DNA of 37,598 nucleotides from a virus, in the IMG/VR virus record IMGVR_UViG_3300022839_000043, positions 1-37,598 of that record; one strand, written 5' to 3'. The notes beneath the pieces are model-generated. The model saw only the letters and a program-made list of their open reading frames with translations, was not told where the DNA came from and searched no databases. The position numbers and the translations under genes are program-made. Positions 12,504 through 36,824 of this stretch are shown piece by piece. Numbering within the stretch: position 1 is the stretch's first letter; the number at the start of each line of letters is the position of its first letter.

Positions 12504-12515
12504 TACTGATCCTCT

Positions 12516-12536
12516 AACTAAAGTTCAAACTATAGA
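12516..12536 (-). promoter_or_regulatory. 21-bp element ahead of small terminase
   Basis: On the minus strand this reads CTATAGTTTGAACTTTAGTT and stands just before the ribosome binding site of the small terminase gene. The same TTTGAACTTTAGT word stands just ahead of the first replication-operon gene at 22859-22871. It is a single copy of the element found as inverted pairs at 12813-12890 and 22725-22803. Function unknown; an operator or leader element is likely. Confidence 0.5.
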
Positions 12537-12812
12537 TCACGGTATTCATTTCATTCATGTAAGCAGTGCGAACACTCACTTAGTATTCACAACAATAAGA
12601 TTTAACCTATGTGGGTAGTCGAAATGGAGATGTGACTAAAGTTCTTAGTTCTAACTTAACTGCCTATCAGCAGAATCACAACAATAAGTAATGAAACGAT
12701 AATTGTTCGTATTCTGGTTAGCAGTCAAGTATCTCTTTGGGCTGTACTTAAGTTCCTTACTTAAGTTTAACTACTAGTTATAACAACTACTAGATTGATT
12801 AACTAGAACCTG

Positions 12813-12890
12813 TACTAAAGTTCATACTATAGTCTTAACTACTAAGTAATAATATCTAGTAGTTGTAAAACTATCAGTTGAACTTTAGTA
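12813..12890. repeat. Inverted pair of the 21-bp element (left copy)
   Basis: The left arm (12813-12833) begins TACTAAAGTT and ends ACTATAGT. The right arm (12870-12890) is its reverse complement at 17 of 21 positions and ends GAACTTTAGTA. A 36-nt loop separates them. An equivalent pair with a 37-nt loop is at 22725-22803. The conserved spacing suggests one protein dimer binding both arms, or a cruciform or RNA hairpin. Confidence 0.6.
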
Positions 12891-12913
12891 GGTACTTAAG
12901 TTAACCCCTTACC

Positions 12914-12953
12914 CCTTACTTATAGATAGGGCCACATAAGTAGTGTTTGTAAC
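12914..12953 (-). promoter_or_regulatory. Conserved promoter-like element, copy 1 (leftward)
   Basis: Read on the minus strand: GTTACAA, 10 nt, TGTGGCCCTAT, then CTATAAGTAAGG. The same arrangement occurs at 22687-22724 and 28286-28325 on the plus strand. The core TGTGGCCCTAT is identical in all three. Each copy faces the next downstream operon; this one faces the small terminase and all structural genes, with a leader of about 410 nt. It is a strong candidate for a phage-specific late promoter, perhaps read with the sigma-like protein at 22097-22675. Confidence 0.6.
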
Positions 12954-13131
12954 AAACTAAATGAGATAAACTTAGATAAACTTACAAGTAGTTGATAACT
13001 ATACACATAAACTTAATCTTTTATTGTTGTGATTCTGTTGTGGGTAGCCGAAGTCCTGTATTTAGGTATGAAACCTTGACGTGTTGTCTGAACGTAGGGA
13101 AGAACTACTAGGTCTTAACGATAGTAATACC

Positions 13132-13237
13132 GTGTGTCATTTATGCAACACTATGTAATAATCGTACCTGACCGTAAATATATTTGTTCTTAACCTTGGT
13201 GGTAAAACCTTAGTGTGTCATTTGTGCAACACTTTGT
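13132..13237. repeat. Dispersed 25-bp direct repeat, two copies
   Basis: Copies at 13132-13156 and 13213-13237 both begin GTGTGTCATTT and continue TGCAACACT; they differ at two positions. Spacing start to start is 81 bp. Function is unknown; a protein binding site is possible. Confidence 0.6.
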
Positions 13238-13327
13238 CTGTAGGGTGTGTTCACTACTTGTTATAGTATAACACTTTGCCCAAATAGTTTTTTCTTGTTT
13301 TGGATTTGTAGGTGCATAAGGGCTCCG

Positions 13328-13386
13328 CCCCCGAATCACCCCAGTTTCCACTAGGGTCCCATGTTTTATTATAGACGATTCGGGGG
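13328..13386 (-). terminator. 10-bp perfect inverted repeat, possible terminator of the leftward small-gene operon
   Basis: CCCCCGAATC (13328-13337) and GATTCGGGGG (13377-13386) are perfectly complementary with 39 nt between them. They lie downstream of the last gene of the leftward small-gene operon. Both arms contain a GANTC site. No run of T follows on the minus strand, so the element could instead be a protein-binding inverted repeat. Confidence 0.4.
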
Positions 13387-13516
13387 TCCCGTCAATGGAA
13401 AATAACGCTTGACAGGACTAATGTGATGATTCGTTACACTACTGTAATAATTCGTGATGATATGAAGATAGGGGTTGACAAAAGTTTTTTACTAAGGCAG
13501 GGGGGCGATTCGGCAT

Positions 13517-13560
13517 ACACTTATGAGACCATATTGATACACTTATAGGAACATATTGAT
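13517..13560. repeat. 22-bp tandem repeat, two copies
   Basis: Two adjacent 22-bp units (13517-13538 and 13539-13560), both starting ACACTTAT and ending CATATTGAT, with three differences in the middle. It lies downstream of the leftward small-gene operon. Function unknown. Confidence 0.6.
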
Positions 13561-13765
13561 ACCCTAATTGTACCCCAGTCTAATACGTTACAAGACTCCT
13601 CAAGGTTAACCCCGTTGTGTAACGCTTTAACGCCTAACGCTAAACGGTTGTGTTTGTTAGATTATAACATAAGGTCACAACCACAGTATAAGGCCCGCAC
13701 AGTGCAAGTAGAACCGGTAGGCGGTAGCCCTAGCTTGAACACTAGAGCCACCCACCTGTGCCTCC

Positions 13766-14002
13766 TTACATTGCCCCCCTTGTCCGCTTGCTGTCCAAGT
13801 ACGCGTCAGTAGCTTTCAACCAAGCGGGGTCCGCATTTGTCATGTCAGGCGGGAAAAATTCACCTACTTCCCTGACCGTCACAACGTTTCTAACAGTCGC
13901 GTTTAGATGGTCCGCTAGTGCCTGAGCATTTGCCTTCACATCCCACACAACCACGCATTGCAAGGGGTGAACACCCTCTACCGTTACACTGTAGAGTTTC
14001 AT
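13766..14002 (-). CDS. Small unknown protein
   Basis: 78 residues: MKLYSVTVEGVHPLQCVVVW starts a beta-rich half, followed by a helix (NAQALADHLNATV) and another strand with VVTVREVGEFFPPD. This alternation resembles small ferredoxin-like folds, but no family is recognised. The ATG overlaps the upstream stop by 4 nt, and AAGGAT lies upstream. It is the last gene of the leftward small-gene operon. Confidence 0.7.
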   Translation of the reverse strand: MKLYSVTVEGVHPLQCVVVWDVKANAQALADHLNATVRNVVTVREVGEFFPPDMTNADPAWLKATDAYLDSKRTRGAM

Positions 14003-14217
14003 AGTCTATAATCCTTGTACTTATTTGTAGGGATATACCAGCCAGAGGGTAGCCTATTTGCATAGCCAAGCTGCTCAAGAACGTCTAAGTCCGAGAACAT
14101 GCCGGACAGATGTTCTGGCAATGTAGCGGGATCTACCCCAGCTTTGTTCAGACGCACCTTAAGTAGTGCGCTTGCCTGAAGATCAAACCCGCATTTTGGG
14201 CAGCAATCGATTGTCAT
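13999..14217 (-). CDS. Small protein with N-terminal zinc-knuckle-like motif
   Basis: 72 residues. The N-terminus MTIDCCPKCGFDL has a CxxC knuckle; only one such pair is present, so metal binding would need a partner or dimer. The C-terminus, SGWYIPTNKYKDYRL, is basic and aromatic. The ATG has AAGGAATC upstream. It overlaps the next gene by 4 nt. Unknown function; a small DNA- or protein-binding factor is conceivable. Confidence 0.7.
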   Translation of the reverse strand: MTIDCCPKCGFDLQASALLKVRLNKAGVDPATLPEHLSGMFSDLDVLEQLGYANRLPSGWYIPTNKYKDYRL

Positions 14218-14247
14218 TATATAGATTCCTTATTTGTTGTGAATTGA

Positions 14248-14481
14248 TTAGTAAGAAGTCGCGGCTATTTTCTGGAAAGTAGCGACTGCCCTTACAATAC
14301 CATGCGACTTTATAGAGCTCTTAAACTCCGATATTGATATATCTCTGCCTGTAGAAATACGCCTGATACCTACAAAGCAATTCTTGCCCGTTGTATGGTC
14401 TTCTATAGACAAGATTCCGCCGTTATATCCATACCATTCCACGAGGTAGTTTTGATCTTCGTATATAGTTTCAAGTTTCAC
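14248..14481 (-). CDS. Small unknown protein
   Basis: 77 residues beginning at GTG 14481, which overlaps the upstream stop (GTGA), a sign of coupled translation. Sequence: strands (YLVEWYGYNGGILSIEDHTT) and a C-terminal helix (GIVRAVATFQKIAA). No family recognised. Confidence 0.65.
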   Translation of the reverse strand: MKLETIYEDQNYLVEWYGYNGGILSIEDHTTGKNCFVGIRRISTGRDISISEFKSSIKSHGIVRAVATFQKIAATSY

Positions 14482-14684
14482 GATTCCACCCCAGCCCTGA
14501 TTGACTCCTGAATTGTGAAACCTGCGTTTACATCACATGCTATGTCATAAAGCTGGTCCAAGTCTATACCGACGCCGATACAAAATTCAACCTCTGACCG
14601 AGTCAACGGCTGTTTGTTAGTATGGCCATAATACGCCCAACGTTCGTTTATAATATTGATATATCCGCCAATTTTATCGTTCAT
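14478..14684 (-). CDS. Small unknown protein
   Basis: 68 residues, with NKQPLTRSEVEFCIGVGIDL and LYDIACDVNAGFTIQESIRA that look helical. The ATG at 14684 has a strong AAGGAG. Adjacent to the gene at 14687 and overlapping the next one. Function unknown. Confidence 0.65.
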   Translation of the reverse strand: MNDKIGGYINIINERWAYYGHTNKQPLTRSEVEFCIGVGIDLDQLYDIACDVNAGFTIQESIRAGVES

Positions 14685-14686
14685 CT

Positions 14687-15001
14687 CTATTCTACTCCTT
14701 CGCTTTCCAGTTCATCCAATGCCTCACAAGCGGCGCAATACAACGTCGCATAAGCAATCCGGCAGGCTATTGATCCGAATGTGTCGCCTTCTTGTGCAAT
14801 ACCCCCGCAACCCTCAAGCCATTCCTCACCATCGTCAGTATTTTGATCAGCGCAAAATTGAATTGCTTTATGGTAGTAGATTACATCTTCATACCCGTCG
14901 CAAGTTTGATGAATGTAATCGCGGGCAGTTTCGAAACACCCCTCGGATTCTTCCAATGCCTCTTTTGCGATTAGTTTCGCTTCTGTATATAGGTGCATCA
15001 T
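14687..15001 (-). CDS. Small acidic Cys-rich helical protein
   Basis: 104 residues, strongly acidic, with eight cysteines scattered through helical sequence (ALEESEGCFETARDYIHQTC, AIQFCADQN, AEGC near the middle, TLYCAACEALDELESEG). Two start codons stand in tandem (ATGATG at 15001) with no ribosome binding site, so translation is probably coupled to the gene just upstream. Function unknown; a DNA mimic is possible from its acidity, but this is speculation. Confidence 0.65.
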   Translation of the reverse strand: MMHLYTEAKLIAKEALEESEGCFETARDYIHQTCDGYEDVIYYHKAIQFCADQNTDDGEEWLEGCGGIAQEGDTFGSIACRIAYATLYCAACEALDELESEGVE

Positions 15002-15003
15002 GA

Positions 15004-15177
15004 TTAAAAGCTTTCCAGATTGATTGTGCAGATACTCGCGGCAGGTGATAAAATGCGCATTTTACTCGCGTTGAATTCCGCTTGTTTCAACGTCATCGGC
15101 GGCAAATCAATCCGATTCAGTCCGTGCTCTAAAATGACGGCGATTCCGTAGGTGTTCACTGTGTTAGCGTTTTTCAT
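15004..15177 (-). CDS. Small unknown protein
   Basis: 57 residues starting MKNANTVNTYGIAVILEHGL. I chose the ATG at 15177 because AAAGGAAA stands at proper distance and it overlaps the upstream gene's stop; the frame could also begin at 15216 but without such a site. The body (PPMTLKQAEFNASKMRILS) looks like a small alpha/beta protein. Unknown function. Confidence 0.6.
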   Translation of the reverse strand: MKNANTVNTYGIAVILEHGLNRIDLPPMTLKQAEFNASKMRILSPAASICTINLESF

Positions 15178-15365
15178 ATTGTGTTTCCTTTGTCTGACAT
15201 TTCTTCTCTGTTGCAAAACTCGGCAGCTTCTTTGGCGTCCATCCGGTCTATGGCATATCCGGACATGCCATTTGCATATATCGAATGCCTGTTATCCATT
15301 TTCGACAATGAGTCTGAGACGTGGGTGTAACCAAGTCTCAGTAGCCGTTTTGTGATACTTTTCAT
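15174..15365 (-). CDS. Small unknown protein
   Basis: 63 residues with a basic N-terminus (MKSITKRLLRLGYTHVSDSL) and an acidic C-terminus (DAKEAAEFCNREEMSDKG). Its stop overlaps the start of the next gene. No family recognised. The N-terminal half could be a helix that contacts nucleic acid. Confidence 0.6.
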   Translation of the reverse strand: MKSITKRLLRLGYTHVSDSLSKMDNRHSIYANGMSGYAIDRMDAKEAAEFCNREEMSDKGNTI

Positions 15366-15439
15366 ATCGTCACACCTTTATCAGGGTTGAATTATAATAA
15401 TAAGGGCAATGACCATAAAGCAAGTCACTAAAAACGCGA

Positions 15440-15628
15440 CTAGCAAAGGACGTTCCTGCCGTATGATTTACCGTTCGGATAAGTGATTGTGAATCTTGGG
15501 TTTGCACCCTCTTTCCAGTTCACAATCTTACGGCTTAGTTCAACCGACTCTTTGATTGCAAGGGCTTTTGATACGTTAGATGCATGCGCATGGTAGCAAG
15601 CGCCAATTTTGATTGATACTGTAAACAT
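15440..15628 (-). CDS. Small unknown protein
   Basis: 62 residues: strand-helix-strand pattern MFTVSIKIGACYHAHASNVS, ALAIKESVELSRKIVNW, then FTITYPNGKSYGRNVLC. AAGGATAAAAAC precedes the ATG at 15628. Function unknown. It is separated by about 75 nt from the next gene. Confidence 0.6.
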   Translation of the reverse strand: MFTVSIKIGACYHAHASNVSKALAIKESVELSRKIVNWKEGANPRFTITYPNGKSYGRNVLC

Positions 15629-15682
15629 TGTTTTTATCCTTATTAGGGCAAATACCCATAAAACAGGTCACTAGAAACGTGA

Positions 15683-15880
15683 CTAACATTCCAACGGCCT
15701 AGCAAATACTATTGATGTTATCTCTATTTCACATCCGTCTGCTACCTCACCAATCTTGCCGACAGAGGACTCGAATTGTGCGCAAGCATCCGCAAGAGAT
15801 TCGCTATAGATAGTTGTACGGCAGTTCGTATTCGTATTTTCGAACTCTATCTCGAACCATTCAAAATTGTACTCGCCCAT
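15683..15880 (-). CDS. Small acidic unknown protein, first gene of the leftward operon
   Basis: 65 residues, acidic, with MGEYNFEWFEIEFENTNTNC at the start and a central helix (SLADACAQFESSVGKIGE). The ATG has AAGGAAATAAAAA upstream. Being the promoter-proximal gene of the leftward set makes an immediate-early, host-directed role plausible, but nothing in the sequence identifies it. Confidence 0.65.
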   Translation of the reverse strand: MGEYNFEWFEIEFENTNTNCRTTIYSESLADACAQFESSVGKIGEVADGCEIEITSIVFARPLEC

Positions 15881-15937
15881 TTTTTATTTCCTTAGTTGAT
15901 ACCGACTCTTGATTGAATCGGTACGAAGACAGGAAAA

Positions 15938-15965
15938 ATTGTATATAGGCCATATAGGCGCGCAA
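15938..15965 (-). promoter_or_regulatory. Sigma70-like promoter for the leftward small-gene operon
   Basis: On the minus strand TTGCGC (-35), 16 nt, TACAAT (-10), about 55 nt ahead of the first leftward gene at 15880. The -10 matches TATAAT at 5 of 6 positions and the -35 matches TTGACA at 4 of 6. Confidence 0.5.
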
Positions 15966-16164
15966 CAGGCCCGCCAGACCCATTCCCCCTTTCCCTATAT
16001 GGGCGGCGGCATAAGAATCTTATGGGGGAAGATTCGCGCACTGGCAATCCCTAAAATACATTAGTTTGCGCAGGCGCAATCCGTGCGCGTAGCGAGTATA
16101 TAAAGGAATCGGGCGCGGGTGCATAGTCGGATTCGGTAAAGTCTGTAAAGACCCTAAATATTTC

Positions 16165-16193
16165 TTGCGGCAGCACTGGCGATAGGTTATAAA
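16165..16193 (+). promoter_or_regulatory. Sigma70-like promoter ahead of tiny membrane protein gene
   Basis: TTGCGG (16165-16170), 17-nt spacer, TATAAA (16188-16193). The start codon of the small gene at 16225 is about 30 nt further on. Confidence 0.5.
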
Positions 16194-16224
16194 AATTTAA
16201 CAGAAACACAAAAAGGATTCTAAC

Positions 16225-16377
16225 ATGCTCTACCTGGCCCTACTTTCCGTTTGCGTCTGGTTCTTAATACCTAACCTAGCCTTGCTGCTTGTAACACGTG
16301 ACGAAAACTACCATATGGGATTAGGGTTTGCCGCTTTTATACCATGGTCACTATTTGGCCTATCCCTTCTTCAGTAG
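16225..16377 (+). CDS. Tiny two-helix membrane protein
   Basis: 50 residues: MLYLALLSVCVWFLIPNLAL then LLVTRDENYHMG, then GFAAFIPWSLFGLSLLQ. Two hydrophobic segments of about 20 and 17 residues flank a short polar turn, so it should span the membrane twice. The ATG has AAGGA at about 8 nt and a promoter-like sequence upstream. No family recognised. In the divergent control region an immediate-early membrane effector (for example exclusion) is possible, but that is speculation. Confidence 0.65.
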   Translation: MLYLALLSVCVWFLIPNLALLLVTRDENYHMGLGFAAFIPWSLFGLSLLQ

Positions 16378-16534
16378 TTAAAAATAGGGCTTGCGAATCA
16401 ATCGTGAGTCCTATATACCTATAGGTAAGGAAAGGAGGACACCAGGAAAATTCTACTAGGGCCAGCTCTTCGGGGTGCGGTCGCAAAATTCGGAATCGTG
16501 GGGAATCGCTTTTCGGTGTAACAAATAAATTTAC

Positions 16535-16563
16535 TTGACTCGAAATAGGTTTGCCTATACTAT
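16535..16563 (+). promoter_or_regulatory. Sigma70-like promoter facing the repeat arrays
   Basis: TTGACT (16535-16540) followed after 17 nt by TACTAT, or after 15 nt by TATACT (16556-16561). It would transcribe rightward through the three repeat arrays, possibly to make a leader or primer RNA, or serve the early operon at 17077. Confidence 0.5.
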
Positions 16564-16590
16564 TCGCGATTCTTTTGTTGTGATTCGGGC

Positions 16591-16740
16591 AAAAAGTAGT
16601 TTAGCACTAAACTATAATCCAAAAAGTAGTTTAGCACTAAACTATAATCCAAAAAGTAGTTTAGCACTAAACTATAATCCAAAAAGTAGTTTAGCACTAA
16701 ACTATAATCCAAAAAGTAGTTTAACCCTAAACCTTTTAAC
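16591..16740. repeat. 30-bp tandem repeats with palindrome (four perfect, one partial)
   Basis: Units at 16591-16620, 16621-16650, 16651-16680 and 16681-16710 are identical; a fifth (16711-16740) keeps only the first part. Each contains TAGTTTAG-CA-CTAAACTA, an 8-bp inverted repeat, after AAAAAG. There are no spacers. The arrangement suits binding sites of a replication initiator (iterons) or a partition/transcription factor. Confidence 0.9.
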
Positions 16741-16747
16741 CTTAAAC

Positions 16748-16831
16748 CTTTAAGCATGAAACTTTAAGCATGAAACTTTAAGCATGAAACTTTAACCCTA
16801 AACCTTTAAGCATGAAACTTTAAGCATGAAC
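16748..16831. repeat. 14-bp tandem repeats (six units)
   Basis: Six consecutive 14-bp units of CTTTAAGCATGAAA; the fourth (16790-16803) is diverged to CTTTAACCCTAAAC and the last differs at its end. This AT-rich array lies between the 30-bp and 23-bp arrays, as an unwinding element would in an origin. Confidence 0.85.
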
Positions 16832-16839
16832 CTTTCGGT

Positions 16840-16931
16840 GGTGCCCCCTCTAGGGGAATGATGGTGCCCCCTCTAGGGGAATGATGGTGCCCCCTCTAGG
16901 GGAATGATGGTGCCCCCTCTAGGGGAATGAT
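16840..16931. repeat. 23-bp tandem repeats (four units) with CCCCT/AGGGG palindrome
   Basis: Four identical 23-bp units starting at 16840, 16863, 16886 and 16909. Each holds CCCCT-CT-AGGGG, a 5-bp inverted repeat, followed by AATGAT. It is GC-rich compared with the two arrays before it. Part of the probable origin region. Confidence 0.9.
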
Positions 16932-17000
16932 GGTACTCGTTACACTCGCTAGGCGATAACATAATAAAAACAGGTTGTTACACGGTAAAATAAAAACCGA

Positions 17001-17029
17001 TTGACAAGTAGTAAGAACCAATCTACAAA
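17001..17029 (+). promoter_or_regulatory. Early rightward promoter, copy 1
   Basis: TTGACA (17001-17006), 17 nt, TACAAA (17024-17029), then a leader of about 47 nt to the ATG at 17077. The sequence TTGACAAGTAGTAAGAA is repeated exactly at 17507, again with a 17-nt spacing to a -10-like CATAAG. Confidence 0.6.
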
Positions 17030-17570: not shown

Positions 17571-17816
17571 ATGGATAACTTCAGTAAAGCAATCGAAGCC
17601 AAGGGTACTAAGATCGCAACAGTAACCTTCATCAAGGCAGACGGTACAGTACGAGTAATCAATGGCCTATTTAAGCCTTCTAGTAAGATCATCGGGTCAG
17701 ATCGTGGTGTTGCTCAAGGCGAAGCTATGAAGGCACGGGGGCAGGTGCCAATCTATGAGATTTCTAGTAAGATGTGGAAGTCTTTTATGCTCGACAAGGT
17801 GACTAGCGTAGCCTAA
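17571..17816 (+). CDS. WYL_2 / DUF2693-like Sm-like barrel protein
   Basis: 81 residues. The pattern KIATVTFIKADGTVRVINGL, then PIYEISSKMWKSFMLDKVTS, matches phage and plasmid proteins of the DUF2693 (WYL_2, Sm-like SH3 barrel) group, in which a K.DGT.R strand and a final W.SF..D.V strand are conserved. Those proteins have no firm function. It is probably read from the promoter at 17507. Confidence 0.65.
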   Translation: MDNFSKAIEAKGTKIATVTFIKADGTVRVINGLFKPSSKIIGSDRGVAQGEAMKARGQVPIYEISSKMWKSFMLDKVTSVA

Positions 17817-20148: not shown

Positions 20149-20334
20149 ATGTTGTGCTATAAAGATATGACCTTTTGTAGTAAGGTTTGTGGTAACAAAG
20201 GGTGCCATAGGAATTACACAAAAGAGGTAGATGATGCTGCTTACAAGTGGTGGGGTAAGTCTGGTGCGCCAGTGGCGTTTAGTGACTTTAGTGAGTCATG
20301 TGGTATGTATAAAGAGGTAGGAGAAAAGCAATGA
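20149..20334 (+). CDS. Small Cys-rich protein
   Basis: 61 residues: MLCYKDMTFCSKVCGNKGCH at the start, with four of its five N-terminal Cys in FCSKVCGNKGC. Then DDAAYKWWGKSGAPVAFSDF and SESCGMYKE. I have a sense that MTFC..xC.N..C.R / DFS..C..Y proteins recur in phages, without known function. A zinc-binding fold is likely. Overlaps the next gene by 4 nt. Confidence 0.65.
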   Translation: MLCYKDMTFCSKVCGNKGCHRNYTKEVDDAAYKWWGKSGAPVAFSDFSESCGMYKEVGEKQ

Positions 20335-20573
20335 TTGAGTATACAGTTAAAGTTTCTAAGTCTGGTGATAAGTTTTGGTCTCTTAACGGTAAGCTACACC
20401 GTGAGGATGGTCCTGCTATTGAGTATTCTAATGGCGATAAAGTTTGGTACCTTAATAACAATCGACTGTCAGAAGAACAACATAAAGCTGCTACTGCACC
20501 TAAACCATCTTGTAGTGGCAAAGAAGTAGTAATTTATGGTATTACTTATGTCCTGAAAGAGAAAAAGCAATGA
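20331..20573 (+). CDS. Small protein with one MORN-like repeat
   Basis: 80 residues. KFWSLNGKLHREDGPAIEYS followed by NGDKVWYLNNNRLSEEQ is the hallmark N.G.LHReDGPA pattern seen in MORN-like repeats of phage proteins. The C-terminus (SGKEVVIYGITYVLKEKKQ) is a short strand pair. 4-nt overlaps on both sides (ATGA) show tight coupling with its neighbours. Function unknown. Confidence 0.65.
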   Translation: MIEYTVKVSKSGDKFWSLNGKLHREDGPAIEYSNGDKVWYLNNNRLSEEQHKAATAPKPSCSGKEVVIYGITYVLKEKKQ

Positions 20574-22096: not shown

Positions 22097-22675
22097 ATGG
22101 ATAAAGTAAAAGAGAAGCTAAGTACAAAAGAGGTCGTATCTATGTGCAAGTCACTAGCAGGTAAGTTCCGTAGTCCTTCACATAAAGACGACCTCGTACA
22201 AGAGGGTATCCTTACATGCTACACTATCCTAGACACAGAGCCAGATGCACACCCTGCGAAGCTCTACAGGGAGGCTAAGAGGCGTATGCACGACTACCTT
22301 AACCTAGACACACACCCCCTTACCATACCTGCCCACAGTGCCTCTCGTAGGCTCACTCACAACATTGATAGTGACAACAGTGGGAACAACCTGTCAGATG
22401 GTAGCTATGAGTGGCTCAGGACTGTACTATCATCCACTTTTGCGGACTATGATGAGGTTAGTGAGATGAGTGGACAAGTCGATAACAACGATCCCGACTA
22501 CCTATTTACTGTTGCAAAAGGGACACTAGACCAAGAAGAGTACCAAGTTATCTGGTATCGCTATCACGAAAGTATGTCACAACAACAAGTAGCTAACATT
22601 ATGGAAACTAACAAGATGTGGGTCTCTCGTAAGGAAAAGAGTGCTACAGCCAAGCTATACAGTGAGTTTGTGTAA
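22097..22675 (+). CDS. Sigma70-like RNA polymerase sigma factor
   Basis: 192 residues. HKDDLVQEGILTCYTILDTE resembles sigma region 2 (DLVQEGILGL type) near residues 30-50; the C-terminus (QVIWYRYHESMSQQQVANIM, ETNKMWVSRKEKSATAKLYS) is a region 4 helix-turn-helix. The DNA-melting residues of region 2.3 are not clear. As the last gene of the early operon and directly before a copy of the conserved promoter-like element, it is a natural candidate to redirect host RNA polymerase to middle and late phage operons. That link is inference. Confidence 0.75.
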   Translation: MDKVKEKLSTKEVVSMCKSLAGKFRSPSHKDDLVQEGILTCYTILDTEPDAHPAKLYREAKRRMHDYLNLDTHPLTIPAHSASRRLTHNIDSDNSGNNLSDGSYEWLRTVLSSTFADYDEVSEMSGQVDNNDPDYLFTVAKGTLDQEEYQVIWYRYHESMSQQQVANIMETNKMWVSRKEKSATAKLYSEFV

Positions 22676-22686
22676 CAATTTGTGAT

Positions 22687-22724
22687 GTTACAAGTCTTAT
22701 TTTGTGGCCCTATAGGTAAGTAGG
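22687..22724 (+). promoter_or_regulatory. Conserved promoter-like element, copy 2 (rightward)
   Basis: GTTACAA, 9 nt, TGTGGCCCTAT, then AGGTAAGTAGG. Same arrangement as at 12914-12953 (minus) and 28286-28325 (plus). It lies 12 nt after the sigma-like gene and about 170 nt before the first gene of the replication operon, and points to it. Confidence 0.6.
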
Positions 22725-22871
22725 TACTAAAGTTTAAACTATAGTTTTTCACTCTCTAGTATTATAACAACTAGTTAATAAGACTATAGTAGGAACTTTA
22801 GTATGTACTATAGTAGTCTTTTTATGTTGTGTATCTTATTGTGTTGTGGTACTTAGGTTTGAACTTTAGTA
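22725..22871. repeat. Inverted pair of the 21-bp element (right copy) plus extra half sites
   Basis: Arms at 22725-22745 (starts TACTAAAGTT, ends ACTATAGT) and 22783-22803 (reverse complement, ends GAACTTTAGTA) enclose 37 nt, which contains TATAACAACTAGTTAATA, a word also present near 12.78 kb in similar form. Extra half sites: TACTATAGT at 22806 and TTTGAACTTTAGTA at 22858-22871, the latter just ahead of the first replication-operon gene. The 200-nt region 22676-22891 holds no gene. Confidence 0.6.
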
Positions 22872-22891
22872 GGTAGATGGAGATAATAGTT

Positions 22892-23074
22892 ATGGATAAG
22901 ACAGTAGCTCGGTGGACTGGGTACGTCTATGGGGGTGATTACGGCGATCATGTTTATGTGGAAGAAGACCCAGATGGGGACTATGTTAGTTACGAAGACT
23001 ACAAGGTTCTGCTAGATGAGTGTGACAGTTTACGTGGTATGATTAAAAACATCGAGGTATTCTACGATGAGTGA
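22892..23074 (+). CDS. Small acidic unknown protein
   Basis: 60 residues from the ATG at 22892, preferred because GGAG stands 9 nt before it; an in-frame ATG lies at 22877. Acidic: TGYVYGGDYGDHVYVEEDPD, then a helix (YKVLLDECDSLRGMIKNIEV). It overlaps the primase-helicase start by 8 nt and heads the replication operon. Function unknown. Confidence 0.6.
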   Translation: MDKTVARWTGYVYGGDYGDHVYVEEDPDGDYVSYEDYKVLLDECDSLRGMIKNIEVFYDE

Positions 23075-24656
23075 CCACCACCACCTAGAGTGTCCCTATG
23101 AGAGTTGTGGCTCTAGTGACGCCTTCAGCTACAACGATAAGGGGTTTGGTAAGTGTCACTCATGTGGGGAACACTACCCTGCCAACAGGAAGATGTTTAG
23201 TTGGGCCAAGGAAAAGTACCCTACTGACGGAACAATAAAAGCCTATAACAGCGGGGGTTATGATTTGTCGGAATACAAGACTGAAGTAGAAGAGGTCACT
23301 GGTAGGGGTGCATATGTCAACATGCGAGGTATCAACACTAAGACCATGGAAGACTATGGTGTACTGACTTATAGTAACCGACAAGAGTATAAGTACCCGT
23401 CCGGTGGAATTAAGGTGCGTACACTGCCAGAGAAGGGTTTCTATGCTAAGTCTGGCTTTAAGGGTGATGAACTATTCGGTATGAACCTGTTTACTGCTGG
23501 TAGTTCTAAGATGGTTACTATTACAGAGGGTGAACTATGTGCTATGAGTGTCTCACAGATGTTAAAGAGTGGTTATACCAATCCTGTTGTGTCTGTTCCT
23601 TCAGCAACACCAAGTCGTAAACTGTGGGAGAACTGTAAGGAGTGGCTTGATAGCTTCGAGAAGATCATCCTGTCTATTGATAATGATGCTGCTGGTGATG
23701 CTCTAGTTGAGAAGATGTTGGACCTCTTTCCTAACAAGGTCTACCGTGTAAATCACTCTCCCTACAAGGACGCTAATGACTTCCTACAGGCAGGTAAGGC
23801 AGCAGACTTCAAGGCAGCATGGTGGAACGCTAAACGACCCTCTCCAGCCGGATTTACCTCTGGTACTGAGTCGTGGATCAAGGCAGTACGTGAGGAAGAC
23901 CCCTACAGCTATGTACCTACCCCGATCAAGGGACTTAACGATAAGATCAGGGGTTGGGTTAAGGGAGGTATCACAGTTATTAAGGCACCGCCCGGCGTGG
24001 GTAAGACAAGTATCGTTCGATATGCCCAGTATGACCTCGTTCGTAACCAAGGGCAGGTAGTAGCTAACCTAGCAATGGAAGAAATGAGGTCCACAACAGC
24101 AAGGGGTCTAGCAACATACGAGCTTAAGGCTAATGTTAATACCCAAGAGGATGCTGATTTAAACGGTTTCGACTTGGGTAAGGTAGAGCAGGCTGTTATT
24201 GATGTTGTGGGTGATGATAGGTTCATCGGTTTTGATATTGACCCTAGTAACCCTCTTGAGTCGTGCCTCACACAGTGTCAACATGCTGTAGCTATCTATG
24301 GTGCGGATTACATCTTCATCGACCACCTACAACGCCTAGCATACCTCTCTGGTGTTGACAATGCTACTGGTGGCCTTACTGAACTTGGTGTTAAGCTAGT
24401 AGAGTTTGCTAAACGTAAGAACGTGGGTATTGTAGCTATCTCACACGTAAATGGGGATGGTCACACTAAGTATGCTAAGGCTATCGAGGAAGAGGCTATC
24501 ATCCTGATTGAGCTAAAGCGTGATAAGCTAGCAGAGGATATTGAAGAACGTAACACTACGCAACTGACAGTTACTAAGAACCGTCCTTTTGCCTTGACGG
24601 GTGAAGCAGGTTCGATTAAGTATGATAGTGACACAACAATGGTAAGAGGAGAGTAG
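23067..24656 (+). CDS. Primase-helicase (T7 gp4-like)
   Basis: 529 residues. N-terminal zinc finger with Cys9, Cys14, Cys30 and Cys33; TOPRIM with TITEGELCAMS (Glu154) and SIDNDAAGD (Asp205, Asp207); linker; then a RecA/DnaB-type helicase with Walker A APPGVGKTS (307-315), Walker B YIFIDHLQ (about 415-422) and a late VTKNRPFALTG motif. It should unwind DNA and make primers for the phage polymerase. The start overlaps the previous gene; the stop is 2 nt before the exonuclease part of the polymerase, and the two could be translationally coupled. Confidence 0.92.
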   Translation: MSDHHHLECPYESCGSSDAFSYNDKGFGKCHSCGEHYPANRKMFSWAKEKYPTDGTIKAYNSGGYDLSEYKTEVEEVTGRGAYVNMRGINTKTMEDYGVLTYSNRQEYKYPSGGIKVRTLPEKGFYAKSGFKGDELFGMNLFTAGSSKMVTITEGELCAMSVSQMLKSGYTNPVVSVPSATPSRKLWENCKEWLDSFEKIILSIDNDAAGDALVEKMLDLFPNKVYRVNHSPYKDANDFLQAGKAADFKAAWWNAKRPSPAGFTSGTESWIKAVREEDPYSYVPTPIKGLNDKIRGWVKGGITVIKAPPGVGKTSIVRYAQYDLVRNQGQVVANLAMEEMRSTTARGLATYELKANVNTQEDADLNGFDLGKVEQAVIDVVGDDRFIGFDIDPSNPLESCLTQCQHAVAIYGADYIFIDHLQRLAYLSGVDNATGGLTELGVKLVEFAKRKNVGIVAISHVNGDGHTKYAKAIEEEAIILIELKRDKLAEDIEERNTTQLTVTKNRPFALTGEAGSIKYDSDTTMVRGE

Positions 24657-24658
24657 TT

Positions 24659-25108
24659 ATCAAAGTACAAGTTTTTGACATAGAAACGGATGGTCTCCTC
24701 GAAGAACTAACTAAGGTACATGTTGTGTCGTGGACTTCAGATGGAGAGACTATCCAACATACACACGACTACGGGGAAATGCGTAAGTTCTTCGAGGATG
24801 CAGATGTCCTTGTAGGCCACAACATAGTTATGTTTGATGTTGTGGCTGTTGAACGTGTGCTAGGTATTAAGATCAAGGCAAAATTGGTAGATACTCTTGC
24901 TCTTAGTTGGTATCTAAACTATGACCGTATGAAGCATGGTCTTGAGAGCTACGGTGAGGACTATGGGGTGCCTAAGCCTGTGATTAAGGACTGGCACTCG
25001 CTTACACCTGAAGACTACGCTCATAGGTGCGATACTGATGTTCAGATCAACTGGCGGCTATGGAAGTCACTAGAGATTAAATTAGGGAAGTTGTACGGAT
25101 GGAAATGA
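24659..25108 (+). CDS. DNA polymerase I, 3'-5' exonuclease part (separate frame)
   Basis: About 149 residues from ATC at 24659. Exo I is KVQVFDIETDG with the catalytic Asp and Glu, Exo II is VLVGHNIVMFDVVAVE, Exo III is YAHRCDTDV. The first ATG/GTG/TTG in frame is GTG 24725, which would remove Exo I, so the gene probably starts at ATC 24659 (or GTT 24656), 7 nt after GGAG, or is reached from the helicase frame by a shift. The frame ends in the first codons of the methyltransferase gene. The polymerase domain follows in two further frames, so this is a fragment of a family A polymerase. Confidence 0.75.
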   Translation: MKVQVFDIETDGLLEELTKVHVVSWTSDGETIQHTHDYGEMRKFFEDADVLVGHNIVMFDVVAVERVLGIKIKAKLVDTLALSWYLNYDRMKHGLESYGEDYGVPKPVIKDWHSLTPEDYAHRCDTDVQINWRLWKSLEIKLGKLYGWK

Positions 25109-25833
25109 ATCTTATGCTAGGTGATTGCCTAGAGCGTATGAAAGAGATACCCGATGGTAGCGTAGATATGGTCCTGACCGATCCTCCCTACGGCACCACG
25201 GCTTGCAAGTGGGACAGCGTTATTCCTTTTGAACCGATGTGGGAGCAACTCAAGCGGATAGTAAAGCCTAGAGGGGCTATCGTGTTGACAGCTTCGCAGC
25301 CGTTCACTTCGGCGTTGGTGATGAGCAATGCGGCAATGTTCAGGTATTGCTGGGTTTGGGAGAAATCAAAGGCAACAGGCTTCCTCAACGCCAAAAAGCG
25401 TCCGCTGGTTGCCCATGAAGACGTGTTGGTTTTCTGCCAATCTGTTTCAGCATATAATCCACAAAAAACAAGTGCCGCAGCATACGATAAGGGTGTGCGT
25501 AAGGCGCAAACGGAAAATGACGTGTACAGTAAATTTGCACAAGTTGGCGTCAAAAGTAGCGGCGAACGCTACCCTAGATCGGTGCAGTATTTCAAGACAG
25601 CAGAGCGAGAGGGCGGGTATCACAAGACCCAAAAGCCCGTTGCGCTGATGGAATACCTAATCAAGACATACACAAACGAAGGTGAAACCGTGCTGGACTT
25701 CACAATGGGCAGCGGTACTACAGGTATAGCTTGTGTTAATACTGAAAGAAACTTTATAGGTATTGAGATGGACCAAACTTATTTTGATATAGCTAAAGGT
25801 AGGATTGAAGATGCAGAAGCAGCTAGACGATAG
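25099..25833 (+). CDS. DNA methyltransferase (beta class, DPPY) inserted in the polymerase locus
   Basis: 244 residues. DPPY at 28-31 comes before the SAM-binding motif DFTMGSGTTG (200-209), the beta-class order for N6-adenine or N4-cytosine methyltransferases. ASQPFTSALVMSN and LNAKKRPLVAHEDVLVF are typical of this phage group. It overlaps the exonuclease frame by 10 nt and the polymerase frame by about 23-29 nt. The central part (about 25190-25715) is GC-rich while both ends use AT-rich phage codons, a mosaic suggesting recombination with another allele. Sequence specificity cannot be read. Likely protects phage DNA. Confidence 0.85.
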   Translation: MEMNLMLGDCLERMKEIPDGSVDMVLTDPPYGTTACKWDSVIPFEPMWEQLKRIVKPRGAIVLTASQPFTSALVMSNAAMFRYCWVWEKSKATGFLNAKKRPLVAHEDVLVFCQSVSAYNPQKTSAAAYDKGVRKAQTENDVYSKFAQVGVKSSGERYPRSVQYFKTAEREGGYHKTQKPVALMEYLIKTYTNEGETVLDFTMGSGTTGIACVNTERNFIGIEMDQTYFDIAKGRIEDAEAARR

Positions 25834-26728
25834 TGCATGGAAGTTAATCGACTATCTTACGTTCAAGATGCAGTGTGCTAGTGAACAAGAGCTTACTAAG
25901 TGGAAGTTGGACGTAGAGCTTACACAAACGTCTTATGATGAGATTATGGCCCTCAAAGATGAGAAGGTCAGTCAACTAGCAGAGGCTATGCCACGCAAGC
26001 AACTAACTAAGGTCGCAACACAACCAAAGATCATGTATAAGAAGAATGGTGATCTATCCGAACTTGGTCACAAGTGGTTTGCCTTGTGTAAAGAGAACAA
26101 GCAACCTAAGACTTCCCTCTCTTTTGTTGTGAAAGTGGGTGAGGAACTTGGGAACCCTAATAGTACAGATCAGGTTAAGGACTGGTTGTATTCACTAGGT
26201 TGGCAACCACGTACCTTTAAGTTTTTACGTGACAAGGGTACTGGGGACGAACGTAAGATCGAACAGGTGCGTAAGGACGGAGAACTGTGTGAAAGTGTGC
26301 TAGAGCTATCTGAGGCTGACCCTGCTGTAGATGTACTTGATGGTCTGACTGTACTGACACACAGGGCAGGTATCCTTAAGGGGTTCCTAGATTCTCATAA
26401 TGGTGGTTATCTAAAGGCAGGTATTGCAGGTTTTACTAACACCTTCCGGTTTAAACACAAGAAGCCTCTGGCTAACTTACCTAGTGTAGATAAGCCCTAT
26501 GGTAAGATCATACGAGGGGTGCTTACCTGTGAGGAGGGTGAGGTGCTGTGTGGTTCGGATATGATTTCACTAGAGGATACTACTAGGCGACACTACGTTA
26601 AACCCTTGGACCCAGTTTTGGTGGAAGAGCAAAGCCAGAAAGGTTATGACCCACACTTAAAGATTGCTGTTCGTGCTGGTATGTTAAGTGAGGAAGATTA
26701 TGAGTTCTACACAAATTATAAAACCTAG
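25811..26728 (+). CDS. DNA polymerase I, central part with motif A (separate frame)
   Basis: 305 residues from ATG 25811 (a TTG stands at 25805). It contains thumb-like sequence (WFALCKENKQPKTSLSFVVK), the stretch LANLPSVDKPYGKIIRGVLT and polymerase motif A in a phage form, GSDMISLEDTTRRHY, then YDPHLKIAVRAGMLSEEDYE. It stops at TAG 26726 just before the part that carries motif B. The frame cannot polymerise alone, because motifs B and C are in the next frame. See the 34-nt segment entry for a way both may be joined. Confidence 0.85.
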   Translation: MQKQLDDSAWKLIDYLTFKMQCASEQELTKWKLDVELTQTSYDEIMALKDEKVSQLAEAMPRKQLTKVATQPKIMYKKNGDLSELGHKWFALCKENKQPKTSLSFVVKVGEELGNPNSTDQVKDWLYSLGWQPRTFKFLRDKGTGDERKIEQVRKDGELCESVLELSEADPAVDVLDGLTVLTHRAGILKGFLDSHNGGYLKAGIAGFTNTFRFKHKKPLANLPSVDKPYGKIIRGVLTCEEGEVLCGSDMISLEDTTRRHYVKPLDPVLVEEQSQKGYDPHLKIAVRAGMLSEEDYEFYTNYKT

Positions 26729-26758
26729 TGGTGTCTCAGGATAACTGTCGCTGAAAAC
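26725..26758 (+). other. 34-nt segment separating two polymerase frames, flanked by AAAAC repeats
   Basis: AAAAC occurs at 26720-26724 and 26754-26758. If the 34 nt from one repeat to the other are skipped, the reading ...NTNYK side continues as YK-TQGDQMQSESNQERYNRI without a stop, joining motif A to motif B as in intact polymerases. The segment contains the TAG and a hairpin GTGT-TCAG...CTGA-ACAC (26731-26760). Options: a recent insertion that broke the gene, a ribosome bypass like T4 gene 60, or an assembly error. Confidence 0.6.
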
Positions 26759-26771
26759 ACAAGGAGATCAA

Positions 26772-27302
26772 ATGCAAAGCGAATCAAACCAAGAGAGGTA
26801 CAACCGTATTCATGCAGTACGTAAGAAAGCAAAAGTTGTAACCTACAGTGCCATGTATGGGGTTGGTTCAGCCAAATTAGCTCGTGAGACTGGGACGACA
26901 CGTAAGCAAGCACAAGCCCTACTAGATGCCTTTTGGGGTATTAACTGGGCTGTAACTAAAATTGCTGCTAGTGCAGAAAAAAAAGAACTGTTTGGTACTA
27001 TGTGGGTACGCAACCCTGTCTCATGTTTCTGGCAGCAACTCAGGACAGAGAGAGATGTTTGGTCTACCCTCAACCAAAGTACAGGGGTTTACTGTTTTGA
27101 TACTTGGGTAGGGTTCTGTATGGAAGGTGGTATGAAGTTGACTGCCAGTTTCCATGATGAGGTAGTTGCAGGTTGTGTTGTAAAAGGCGACTTGGATATG
27201 GTACTTAAAGTTGCGATGGACAAAGCTAATGAGAAGCTAAAGCTAAATGTTAAGCTGGGTCACGACACTCAGTATGGTAAGAACTATGCAGAAATACATT
27301 AG
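26772..27302 (+). CDS. DNA polymerase I, C-terminal part with motifs B and C
   Basis: 176 residues. RKKAKVVTYSAMYGVGSAKL is motif B (O helix, with Arg/Lys and YG), and TASFHDEVVAG is motif C with the catalytic Asp. An AAGGAG lies 6 nt before ATG 26772, so separate translation is possible and a two-subunit enzyme cannot be excluded. The frame is open upstream only to 26745. It ends in YGKNYAEIH. The reading frame differs from the preceding part. Confidence 0.85.
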   Translation: MQSESNQERYNRIHAVRKKAKVVTYSAMYGVGSAKLARETGTTRKQAQALLDAFWGINWAVTKIAASAEKKELFGTMWVRNPVSCFWQQLRTERDVWSTLNQSTGVYCFDTWVGFCMEGGMKLTASFHDEVVAGCVVKGDLDMVLKVAMDKANEKLKLNVKLGHDTQYGKNYAEIH

Positions 27303-33759: not shown

Positions 33760-34737
33760 ATGATTAGTAATCACCTCCCTACAGATTATCAGGCTTTTAT
33801 ACACACATCTAGGTACGCACGTTGGCTAGAGGAAGAGGGTCGCCGTGAGAGTTGGACAGAGACAGTCGAACGATACATGGATAATGTTGTAGGGCGTAAG
33901 ATAGACGACAAAAAGACTAAGGTAGAGCTACAAGAAGCTATCCTAAGCCTTGGTGTTATGCCTTCTATGCGCGCCCTTATGACTGCTGGTCCAGCACTAG
34001 ACCGTGATAACACAGCGGGGTTTAACTGTTCATACCTCCCTGTAGACGACCCCCGTTCCTTTGACGAGGCTATGTTCATTTTGTTGTGTGGCACTGGTGT
34101 AGGCTTCTCTGTAGAGCGTCAGTTCGTATCTAAGCTACCAGATGTACCAGCAGAGTTTAATACAGGGGCTACCATTGTAGTAAAGGACAGTAAGGAAGGT
34201 TGGGCTAAGTCACTTCGTAAAGTTGTATCAGCACTATACAAAGGGAATGTGCCTCAGTGGGATGTGTCTCAAGTTCGGGCAGCAGGTACTAAACTAAAGA
34301 CCTTTGGTGGTCGAGCGTCTGGACCTGCTCCCCTTGTAGACCTGTTTAACTTTGTCATTCGTACCTTTGTAAATGCTAAGGGTCGTAAGCTGTCCTCTAT
34401 TGAGTGCCACGACATCATGTGTAAGATTGGTGAGGTTGTTGTGGTTGGTGGCGTAAGACGCTCTGCTATGATTAGTCTTAGTAACCTTAGTGATGATCGT
34501 ATGCGACATGCTAAGTCGGGTTCATGGTGGGAGGCTCACCCACAACGTGCCTTGGCTAACAACTCTGTGTGCTACACGGAAAAACCTGATGCAGTCTCTT
34601 TTATGCGTGAGTGGCTGGCCCTTGTAGAGAGTGGTTCTGGTGAACGGGGCATCTTTAATCGTCAGGCAGCTAAGGCACAAGCGGCTAAGAACGGACGTCG
34701 AGATACTGACTACGAATTTGGGACAAACCCATGTTCT
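33760..34737 (+). CDS. nrdJ: Class II (B12-dependent) ribonucleotide reductase, exon 1
   Basis: 326 codons. Features: GVMPSMRALMTAGPALDRDN, NCSYLPVDDPRSFDEAMFIL with the first active-site Cys, CGTGVGFSVE, and VGGVRRSAMISLSNLSDDRM. It ends in GTNPCS, where the intron begins; exon 2 begins with EIILRP. The catalytic NxCxE motif (radical Cys and the Glu) is therefore split by the intron between Ser and Glu. Joined product is 633 residues, the size of monomeric adenosylcobalamin-dependent triphosphate reductases. An A/C-rich leader of 65 nt precedes the ATG. If unspliced, translation would stop just after the junction at a TAA. Confidence 0.9.
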
Positions 34738-35900
34738 AAGTAATTTTGGAACCTCGTTAAGTGATTAACGTGTAAAACTATGCGAACTGCTGGAAACCTG
34801 TTAAAACAGATTGGCTACAACATGACCTGAAAAGGTGGGTGTGAACGCTTGAAAACAATCTGTGTTGGGCAATCAGCAGCCAAGACCCTTGACTGGGTAA
34901 GGTTCAACGACTAAATGTGCATAGCCCTTTGGCTATACTTTTGGAGTTAGAAGATGAAATGCGAATTTGATAAAATCTTGTCTATGGCCGTCTACATCAA
35001 AGACGTAAACTACTTTGGTAAATGCGTGAAAGAAGTTTCTGATAAGTATGGGGTCTGTAAGAAGACTGTGTACAACAGATTTAAGAGTATGTATGGTTGC
35101 TCCCCAAGAGAGTTCTTGTCTGGTAAGATAGAGCCTACTACGGCAGAGCTTAGTTCCATTGTTCTATCTAGTGCAACTACACTAGAGGTAAGGGAGTTTC
35201 TTGGCCTAAGCACCAGCCAGTTTGTAGGGATGTACGACAGGCACTATGGTGTTAGCACATTCTCAGCGGCTAGGGAAAAGCTACTAATGGCTGTACCTAG
35301 TAAAGTTAGGGTAAAACCTTTCCGTGAGGATAACGTGTCTATCTTGATGTCACAACACTTAGGGGACGGGTGCTACTGTAAGAAAAGGCACGCGCTCAGG
35401 GTAATACACGGTGTTAAGCAAGCTGAGTACCTGAAGTGGAAAGTTGCTCTTATCTTTGAGGGTTATAACAAAGTCTCTACCCGTGTAAGTGAGCATGTTC
35501 ACACACAGGGCCACGGTTACTTTGCTTGGTACTCTGGTAAACTAGGTAATGTTGACTTTCCAGAAAGAAAAGAAGATGCAGTTAAACTACTGACACCTAT
35601 TGGTTGGTTGTTGTTGTATCTTGACGATGGTTGCTATGGGCAGGATATGCTCATCACAACTGAAAGTGAAACTCTGGCTGTTGCCATGCAGGAAGAGTTA
35701 AAAACTTATGGTGTTACATCACGGGTAAACAGGTGTGGGCAAACAAACTCATATAATGTTTCTATGTGTGGTGGTCAGCAAACTATAGGTTTCTACAAGA
35801 ATTTTATTGAACCTTTCATCGAAATAATACCAAAATGTATGGAGTACAAAACAAAGGTGAAGATATAGTCTGGGGTGGTATTGTTCTCATAACCACTCAG
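34738..35900 (+). mobile_element. Group I intron in the ribonucleotide reductase gene
   Basis: 1163 nt. P1: exon GTTCT (34733-34737) pairs with the internal guide GGAAC (34748-34752), with the required T-G wobble at the 5' splice site. Core sequences include AATCAGCAGCCAAG (34871-34884) and GGTTCAACGACTAAATG. P7 is GACTA (34909-34913) with TAGTC (35866-35870). A hairpin ATAGCC-CTTT-GGCTAT precedes the ORF. The intron ends in G35900; joining 34737 to 35901 restores the RNR frame. Homing is expected from the endonuclease within. Confidence 0.92.
34954..35868 (+). CDS. LAGLIDADG homing endonuclease encoded in the intron
   Basis: 304 residues. Two LAGLIDADG-type helices: ILMSQHLGDG (130-139) and GWLLLYLDDG (217-226), each ending in an acidic residue for metal binding; the first is followed by YCKKRHALRVIHGVKQAEYL. 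The N-terminal 110 residues carry helix-turn-helix-like stretches (EVSDKYGVCKKTVYNRFKSM). GGAG lies 8 nt before the ATG. The stop codon TAG is part of the P7 pairing strand, so the ORF is embedded closely in the ribozyme. It should cut intronless nrdJ alleles at the insertion site. Confidence 0.9.
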   Translation: MKCEFDKILSMAVYIKDVNYFGKCVKEVSDKYGVCKKTVYNRFKSMYGCSPREFLSGKIEPTTAELSSIVLSSATTLEVREFLGLSTSQFVGMYDRHYGVSTFSAAREKLLMAVPSKVRVKPFREDNVSILMSQHLGDGCYCKKRHALRVIHGVKQAEYLKWKVALIFEGYNKVSTRVSEHVHTQGHGYFAWYSGKLGNVDFPERKEDAVKLLTPIGWLLLYLDDGCYGQDMLITTESETLAVAMQEELKTYGVTSRVNRCGQTNSYNVSMCGGQQTIGFYKNFIEPFIEIIPKCMEYKTKVKI

Positions 35901-36824
35901 GAAATAATCCTTCGTCCATTCCAAATGTGCAACCTAACAGAAGTGGTTGTACGTGCTACAGACACTATTGAGACACTATCCGAGAAAGTACGACTTGCCA
36001 GTATACTAGGTACTATTCAATCTACACAGACGCACTTCCCTTACCTACGGGATATTTGGCGTAAGAACACGGAGGAAGAACGTCTACTGGGTGTATCACT
36101 AACGGGTATCATGGATAACCCACTTATGACACTTGAGAACAAGGGGCTAGATAAAACACTAAACCACTTGCGAGATGTAGCAGTCACAACAAATAAAGAG
36201 TGGGCAGACAAACTTGGTATTCAACAGTCTACTGCTGTTACGGCTGTAAAACCTAGTGGTACGGTCTCTCAGCTTGTAGACAGTGCTTCGGGTATCCACA
36301 CACGTTACTCAGAGTATTATATTCGTACTGTTCGTGGTGACAACAAAGACCCTATGACACAGTTTATGGTTGACCAAGGTGTACCTAATGAACCTGATGT
36401 GATGAAGCCAGATGCTACTACAGTGTTTAGCTTCCCTGTTAAGGCTCCTACTGGTGCTGTTGTGACATCTGACCTTAGTGCTATCCAGCAGCTGGATATG
36501 TGGCTGGCCTATCAACGTCACTGGTGTGAACACAAGCCCTCTGTGACAATCAATGTAAAGAGTGATGAGTGGTTTGATGTAGGTTCTTATGTCTACAAGC
36601 ACTTCGATGAAATGTCTGGTGTATCTTTTCTGCCCTTTAATGAGCATACATACCAGCAGGCACCGTATCAAGAGATCGACAAGTTTACTTATGAGGAAGC
36701 GCTACGTATTATGCCAAAGGGTATTGACTGGTCAAGACTAAGCGAGTATGAGAAGAGTGACAACACAACGGGAAGCCAGACCTTTGCTTGTATCGGTGAT
36801 TGTGAGATTGTAGACATTAACTGA
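35901..36824 (+). CDS. nrdJ: Class II ribonucleotide reductase, exon 2
   Basis: 307 codons, in frame with exon 1 after splicing. It begins EIILRPFQMCNLTEVVVRAT, goes on with STAVTAVKPSGTVSQLVDSA (conserved loop near the active site) and SGIHTRYSEYYIRTVRGDN, and ends with FACIGDCEIVDIN, in which CxxxC-like cysteines (CIGDC) shuttle electrons to the active site. Makes dNTPs from NTPs with adenosylcobalamin, independently of oxygen. No ATG of its own should be used; in-frame ATGs exist in the intron but not in a believable context. Confidence 0.9.
   Translation, partial: EIILRPFQMCNLTEVVVRATDTIETLSEKVRLASILGTIQSTQTHFPYLRDIWRKNTEEERLLGVSLTGIMDNPLMTLENKGLDKTLNHLRDVAVTTNKEWADKLGIQQSTAVTAVKPSGTVSQLVDSASGIHTRYSEYYIRTVRGDNKDPMTQFMVDQGVPNEPDVMKPDATTVFSFPVKAPTGAVVTSDLSAIQQLDMWLAYQRHWCEHKPSVTINVKSDEWFDVGSYVYKHFDEMSGVSFLPFNEHTYQQAPYQEIDKFTYEEALRIMPKGIDWSRLSEYEKSDNTTGSQTFACIGDCEIVDIN

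Follow-up and report, generated by a model that had tools for sequence, protein, structure and literature searches.

Conserved tandem-repeat arrays beside GANTC-dense DNA in the divergent control region of CRP-6-type marine phages, a candidate replication origin

Iteron-type origins of phages and plasmids, which include lambda ori and P1 oriR, are characterized by tandem direct repeats of approximately two helical turns beside AT-rich DNA, located at a single locus per genome. At the primary origin of T7, as in the region analyzed here, a promoter-like site is followed by AT-rich DNA, and the associated replisome comprises a primase/helicase, a family A DNA polymerase, an exonuclease and endonuclease I; to our knowledge, T7 carries no repeat arrays of the kind described below, and the start of replication in phages that possess a T7-type replisome but no RNA polymerase is not settled. 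GANTC is the methylation site of CcrM of Alphaproteobacteria, and methylation-dependent GcrA promoters carry it in the promoter spacer. In the repABC replicons of Alphaproteobacteria, promoters and origins are richer in GANTC than expected, and initiation at Agrobacterium ori2 is influenced by CcrM methylation (PMC11514494). The closest cultured phage to the one analyzed here is Roseobacter phage CRP-6 (MK613348), and a text search of the corresponding paper (PMC6918029) returned no mention of repeats or of a replication origin.

The stretch of DNA under study, hereafter the window, is a 37.6-kb virus record whose genes form two divergent modules, structural to the left and early/replication to the right. 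The leftward structural genes (terminase small and large subunits, portal, protease and major head protein) start at 12.5 kb, and the interval from 12.5 to 15.9 kb is occupied by small leftward genes with no assigned function. The rightward genes, from 17.1 kb, specify a WYL_2 protein, a cell-wall hydrolase, ThyX, a phage sigma factor with regions 2 and 4 (22097 to 22675, plus strand; assigned from profiles), a T7-type primase/helicase (23067 to 24656, plus strand), a family A DNA polymerase divided among three frames (24725 to 27302), an exonuclease and endonuclease I. A DNA methyltransferase gene (25099 to 25833) lies between the first two polymerase frames, an insertion which is absent in two relatives (L003 and L004). 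As read from the translations, a ribonucleotide reductase-like gene is present in two parts at 33760 to 36824, which are separated by a 304-amino-acid homing-endonuclease-like frame. A further protein (20331 to 20573) consists of 23-residue repeats encoded by 69-bp DNA repeats, LNGKLHREDGPAIEY, whose copy number varies and which is duplicated in relatives (L030, L066, L132 and others).

No nucleotide relatives of the window were detected among 50,697 phage records. Relatives were collected through TerL and the primase/helicase, and array patterns were searched in 1.36 Mb of related DNA. The closest relative carrying the array region is contig L082 (TerL identity of about 90%), while CRP-6, which has the same gene layout, shares 56% (TerL) and 48% (primase) identity with the window. 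The group of marine phages related to CRP-6 is widespread.

Immediately upstream of the first rightward gene, the window harbors three tandem-repeat arrays, all on the plus strand. The initial annotation had described three successive arrays of 30-, 14- and 23-bp units, and Tandem Repeats Finder (TRF) bore this out across 16590 to 16934. Array 1 (16590 to 16732; period 30, 4.8 copies, 98% match, score 272) comprises four perfect units and one partial unit of CAAAAAGTAGTTTAGCACTAAACTATAATC; array 2 (16720 to 16835) comprises AT-rich 14-bp units; and array 3, designated the C-array (16839 to 16934; period 23, 4.2 copies, 100% match, score 192), comprises four perfect GC-rich units, GGTGCCCCCTCTAGGGGAATGAT. 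For array 2, TRF called 16748 to 16835 (period 14, 6.3 copies, 87% match, score 141), with the 14-bp register beginning earlier, at about 16720. The arrays rank among the top-scoring repeats of the window, in which otherwise only a two-copy 68-bp repeat (12742 to 12873) reaches a score of 155. The copy numbers given previously held, whereas two details of the units required correction: the 8-bp palindrome attributed to the 30-bp unit is an 18-bp dyad, TAGTTTAG-CA-CTAAACTA, with 8-bp arms and a 2-bp center, and the 14-bp units are a mixture of two types, TTTAAGCATGAAAC and TTTAACCCTAAACC. Because the truncated fifth 30-bp unit grades into the 14-bp units, with which it shares the core TTTA..C..TAAA, arrays 1 and 2, both of which are termed B-type here, appear to be related by descent. 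In L082, whose contig ends within the third array, the same three arrays follow one another in this order, with differing copy numbers and units that are slightly altered (the 14-bp array being represented by 15-bp units). As this arrangement is retained, and as arrays of the 23-bp type were found 28 times in related DNA against none in shuffled sequence, the arrays are not attributable to chance.

The C-array is the hallmark of the group. Its unit follows the consensus ACCCC, n(2-5), GTGG or GAGGG, AAAT (the window version being CCCCCTCTAGGGGAAT), and the loose pattern retrieved its 28 arrays of at least three units from the 1.36 Mb of related DNA, with a single array in most loci, the zero count having been obtained with block shuffles. 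Of the 17 loci that extend from terS into the early genes, CRP-6 included, 16 possess a C-array in the same place and orientation (15 by the loose pattern plus L155, whose form the pattern misses), reading toward the early genes and usually forming one cluster per genome. The relatives carry 3 to 6 units with a spacing of mostly 19 to 27 bp, and the window, with 4.2 copies of 23 bp, has the at least three near-identical direct repeats of 17 to 25 bp that are expected of an iteron origin. When 2.9 million viral contigs were scanned for the consensus GACCCCNCCGAGGGAATTA, with no use of gene content, 29 contigs matched; all of them bear genes of the CRP-6-type group, and 28 contain at least three tandem units. 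Several of the 29 had already been part of the set, so that the matches are not all independent. The same consensus produced one isolated match among 84,980 bacterial genomes, in an actinobacterium, which is ascribed to chance; prophage copies were thus not seen, and an array for a lysogenic repressor is less likely. The exact 30-bp core and 23-bp unit of the window had no match in IMG/VR: since array units diverge fast, only consensus searches are effective. A relaxed version of the 30-bp core matched 86 stretches, largely near chance expectation, and was dropped except for matches inside relatives. GGGTC, the T7-type primase site, fits many C-units, though not all, and not those of the window; a use of the units as primase sites is no more than conjecture.

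The DNA directly before the C-array is modular. In 14 of 18 genomes another tandem array, AT-rich or dyad-bearing, occupies this position, and these B-arrays fall into at least seven unrelated types, among them GTTGCAAAAATGTCAC (CRP-6, in which the unit is 16 bp, L104, L129 and L139), TATCGAAAGATA (L088, L117, L115 and L142), ATATTCGAATATAAGC with GGCTCAGGCTTGGCAAT (L125, L134 and L152) and the AGTAGTTTAGCACTAAACTATAAT type of the window, L082 and L128, the last carrying a 32-bp version of the 30-bp unit, AAAGTAGTTCAACGTTAAACTATAAT. CRP-6 differs from the window in this B-array type, with its arrays at 44509 to 44871 arranged in the same order; elsewhere in its complete genome, tandem arrays are coding apart from short, low-scoring ones. 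Many B-units are dyads, as would be expected for the sites of dimeric binding proteins, and among the matches listed no obvious DNA-binding gene family was seen to switch with B-array type. Copy number, which reaches 18.8 across the group, and B-array sequence turn over quickly between relatives. Adjacent easily melted DNA, a further feature of iteron origins, is evident from the stability ranks of this flank: in 15 of 18 genomes, a 100-bp stretch of the flank ranks within the 8% of lowest stability in its record, and in three the flank includes the very least stable 100 bp. In the window, the least stable 100 bp upstream of the C-array falls within the 0.3% least stable positions.

We propose that the arrays may well form the core of a region that unites a replication origin with early control in CRP-6-type phages. 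This proposal draws on the conservation of the array module despite turnover in copy number and sequence, on the constant place, strand and spacing of the C-array, on the AT-rich, low-stability flank with its B-arrays, on the coding location of the other CRP-6 arrays (short, low-scoring ones aside), on the single bacterial match to the unit, on a gene complement that includes a T7-type replisome and a phage sigma factor and in which, as far as genes were examined, no RNA polymerase was recognized, and on the repABC precedent for GANTC excess at origins and promoters (PMC11514494). The primase/helicase must be loaded at whatever sequence serves as origin, and it co-occurs with the sigma factor in 64 of the loci compared. 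RNA polymerase genes were found neither among the scanned genes of the window, which is an incomplete genome, nor in the annotation of CRP-6; T7-type promoters are thus not expected in these phages, which, unlike T7, encode a sigma factor instead. Under this proposal, the polar C-array units would be bound cooperatively by some protein, as iterons are by their initiator, while the phage-specific, AT-rich B-arrays would melt and/or serve as sites for another dimeric protein, particular to the lineage. The primase/helicase would then be loaded and would prime synthesis. Rightward transcription, whether crossing the region or starting in it, would give rise to the early mRNA and may help melting, thereby taking the place of the T7 RNA polymerase that is apparently missing.

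Several observations stand against the proposal. The iteron-type origins have a cognate initiator gene, whereas no initiator family was recognized among the genes scanned in the window and in the GANTC-dense segments described below, in agreement with the initial annotation. A GP88 or DUF7227 protein is encoded in that segment in most relatives (CRP-6 locus L162, 43218 to 44024; L088, L104, L129 and others) but not in the window, for which reason its candidacy as initiator was dropped. Early candidates for DNA or RNA binding that are shared across the group are limited to WYL_2 and the sigma factor. A DnaA-dependent origin was rejected, as all but one of 18 genomes lack DnaA boxes within 700 bp of the C-array. 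The cobaviruses (ICBM1, ICBM2 and CRP-5) share the divergent-module layout, replisome, host family and general GANTC avoidance of the window, and their similar replisome operates in the absence of such arrays. The initial annotation had suggested GC skew as a check on its reading of the arrays as a probable replication origin. The cumulative GC-skew minimum does fall at the control region; however, in both the window and CRP-6 the skew flips where gene direction flips, for which reason it was rejected as origin evidence, and a comparison at fourfold sites does not separate replication from transcription effects. Loss of the repeats from closely related phages, which that annotation had named as grounds for refutation, was looked for and not seen. 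What persists of that reading is a set of iteron-like, conserved arrays by AT-rich DNA in the control region, at the skew minimum; that replication starts there did not follow.

The main rival explanation is that the arrays are purely regulatory, serving the early promoter as multi-site operators or as leader elements in RNA, with replication starting elsewhere. A phage or host regulator, perhaps WYL_2, would bind the conserved unit, either in promoter DNA or in RNA ahead of the Shine-Dalgarno sequence, and so set early transcription or translation. The region was previously described as a divergent control region next to promoters, and promoter-like sites are indeed present on both sides: TTGACT-17-TACTAT just before array 1 (16535 to 16563, plus strand), within a 56-bp block that is identical in L082, and TTGACA-17-TACAAA after the C-array (17001 to 17029, plus strand), where the relatives have their conserved early promoter. 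Because a sigma-70 consensus scan of the region did not rise above chance, the argument for these promoters is their conservation. TTGAC is present at the early-gene end of the C-array in 19 of 19 testable genomes, followed by TAnnnT at exactly 17 bp in 12, and in relatives the distal C-units overlap this promoter while the final unit runs into the Shine-Dalgarno sequence of the first early gene. The units are always in the sense of the downstream gene, and single units directly precede the WYL_2 ribosome-binding site in L125, L134 and L152 (mutually close members of one subgroup), L134 also having a second cluster of 4 units ahead of an early gene. The WYL_2-type small protein (81 amino acids; 17571 to 17816, plus strand, in the window) is encoded by the only early gene present in all 25 relatives carrying the early side of the array, and is a candidate array binder or regulator. 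These C-unit positions fit a regulatory element at least as well as an origin, and it is mainly on account of the early promoter adjoining the C-array and the single units before WYL_2 that the arrays are not called an origin outright. Conversely, the C-array of the window has no TTGAC and occupies the interval 70 to 165 bp ahead of the promoter-like site, copy numbers of up to 18.8 and the stacking of two or three arrays go beyond the usual operators, and the low-stability flank is left unexplained. No lysogeny genes were recognized, so there is no obvious need for an operator array. A purely regulatory role is accordingly regarded as possible, if somewhat doubtful.

Other promoter-like elements were noted in the window. 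A noncoding stretch at 13310 to 13420 (minus strand) contains a strong TTGACG-16-TATAAT site with GAATC in its spacer; a single C-unit and GGTGATTC lie downstream of this leftward site at 13357, and positions 13398 to 13461 are 86 to 91% identical in L083, L114 and L119. Similar 88-bp elements containing repeated AACTTTAGTA/TACTAAAGTT are found in opposite orientations before terS (12540 to 12900, minus strand) and before the helicase block (22700 to 22880, plus strand), and are possibly promoters of the phage sigma factor.

It is unlikely that the arrays instead mark a physical genome end or concatemer junction, at which a terminase or maturation factor would bind a terminal-repeat or packaging site. 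The T7 terminal repeat is flanked by blocks of short repeats. The cobaviruses, with the same two-module layout, have direct terminal repeats exactly in the divergent region, as seen in ICBM1 and ICBM2 (PMC6775973). Their ends, however, carry neither such arrays nor a GANTC-dense segment, no terminal repeat is annotated for CRP-6, and the C-array usually lies about 3 kb (2.4 to 5 kb) from terS, with variable small genes between. Neutral expansion of a functionless noncoding spacer by replication slippage would account for the quick turnover of copy numbers and B-array sequences, and is nevertheless very improbable given that C-unit sequence, polarity, position and exclusivity are kept while flanking DNA is not, and that L082 retains without change the 56-bp block ahead of array 1.

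The most surprising part of the locus, absent from the initial annotation, is the segment between terS and the C-array (12504 to 16838), which contains 34 GANTC sites, or 7.8 per kb against 1.7 per kb elsewhere; none lies within the arrays themselves. Across the 18 genomes examined, the observed/expected ratio is 3.62 in this segment and 0.34 in the rest of the genome, and the contrast is apparent in 18 of 18 (5.7 to 13.2 sites per kb inside, 0.7 to 2.8 outside), always on one side of the arrays. Among 16 palindromic five-letter words, no other was comparably enriched inside and depleted outside; CCNGG had the next largest inside/outside ratio but is avoided in both. The segment takes in coding DNA: in CRP-6, in which it extends from 42433 to 44882, gp68 has approximately 15 sites in 807 bp. 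Within the early module, where GANTC is rare, TTGAC precedes it in 22 cases (8.5 would be expected), with GANTC mostly 13 to 15 bases beyond TTGAC, that is, in the promoter spacer, as anticipated for GcrA/CcrM-type control of sigma-70 promoters. The available part of a report on pelagiphages describes GANTC depletion and makes no mention of a dense segment (PMC9516812), and the cobaviruses have none. The repABC replicons resemble the phages in GANTC excess at promoters and origin (PMC11514494); the GANTC-dense stretch of the phages extends further and stands out more strongly from the remaining genome, and repA, repB and repC were not recognized among the scanned genes of the window and GANTC segments.

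The crowding of GANTC beside the arrays suggests that the phage reads a host cell-cycle mark, its hosts being presumed alphaproteobacterial. Through the GANTC-rich flank, methylation by host CcrM, together with GcrA, would govern when transcription or replication begins, and we tentatively suggest that the origin or early region of a lytic phage could in this manner be tied to the cell cycle of its host.

The initial annotation had, therefore, picked out a real and conserved element, whose function as an origin is plausible but unproven. The arrays constitute a new variant of the iteron-type control region in a widespread marine phage group, set apart from known iteron-type origins by two array classes, one group-wide and one swapped, by the overlap of the relatives' arrays with the early promoter, and by the packing of host methylation sites on one flank. 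They offer a single, group-wide target for origin mapping in a cultured phage (CRP-6, 44509 to 44871). With 6 to 13 GANTC sites per kb next to origin-like arrays, in a genome from most of which the site is purged while being kept in early promoters, the group would, if methylation matters, represent a rare case of a lytic phage using, and not only avoiding, a host epigenetic mark.
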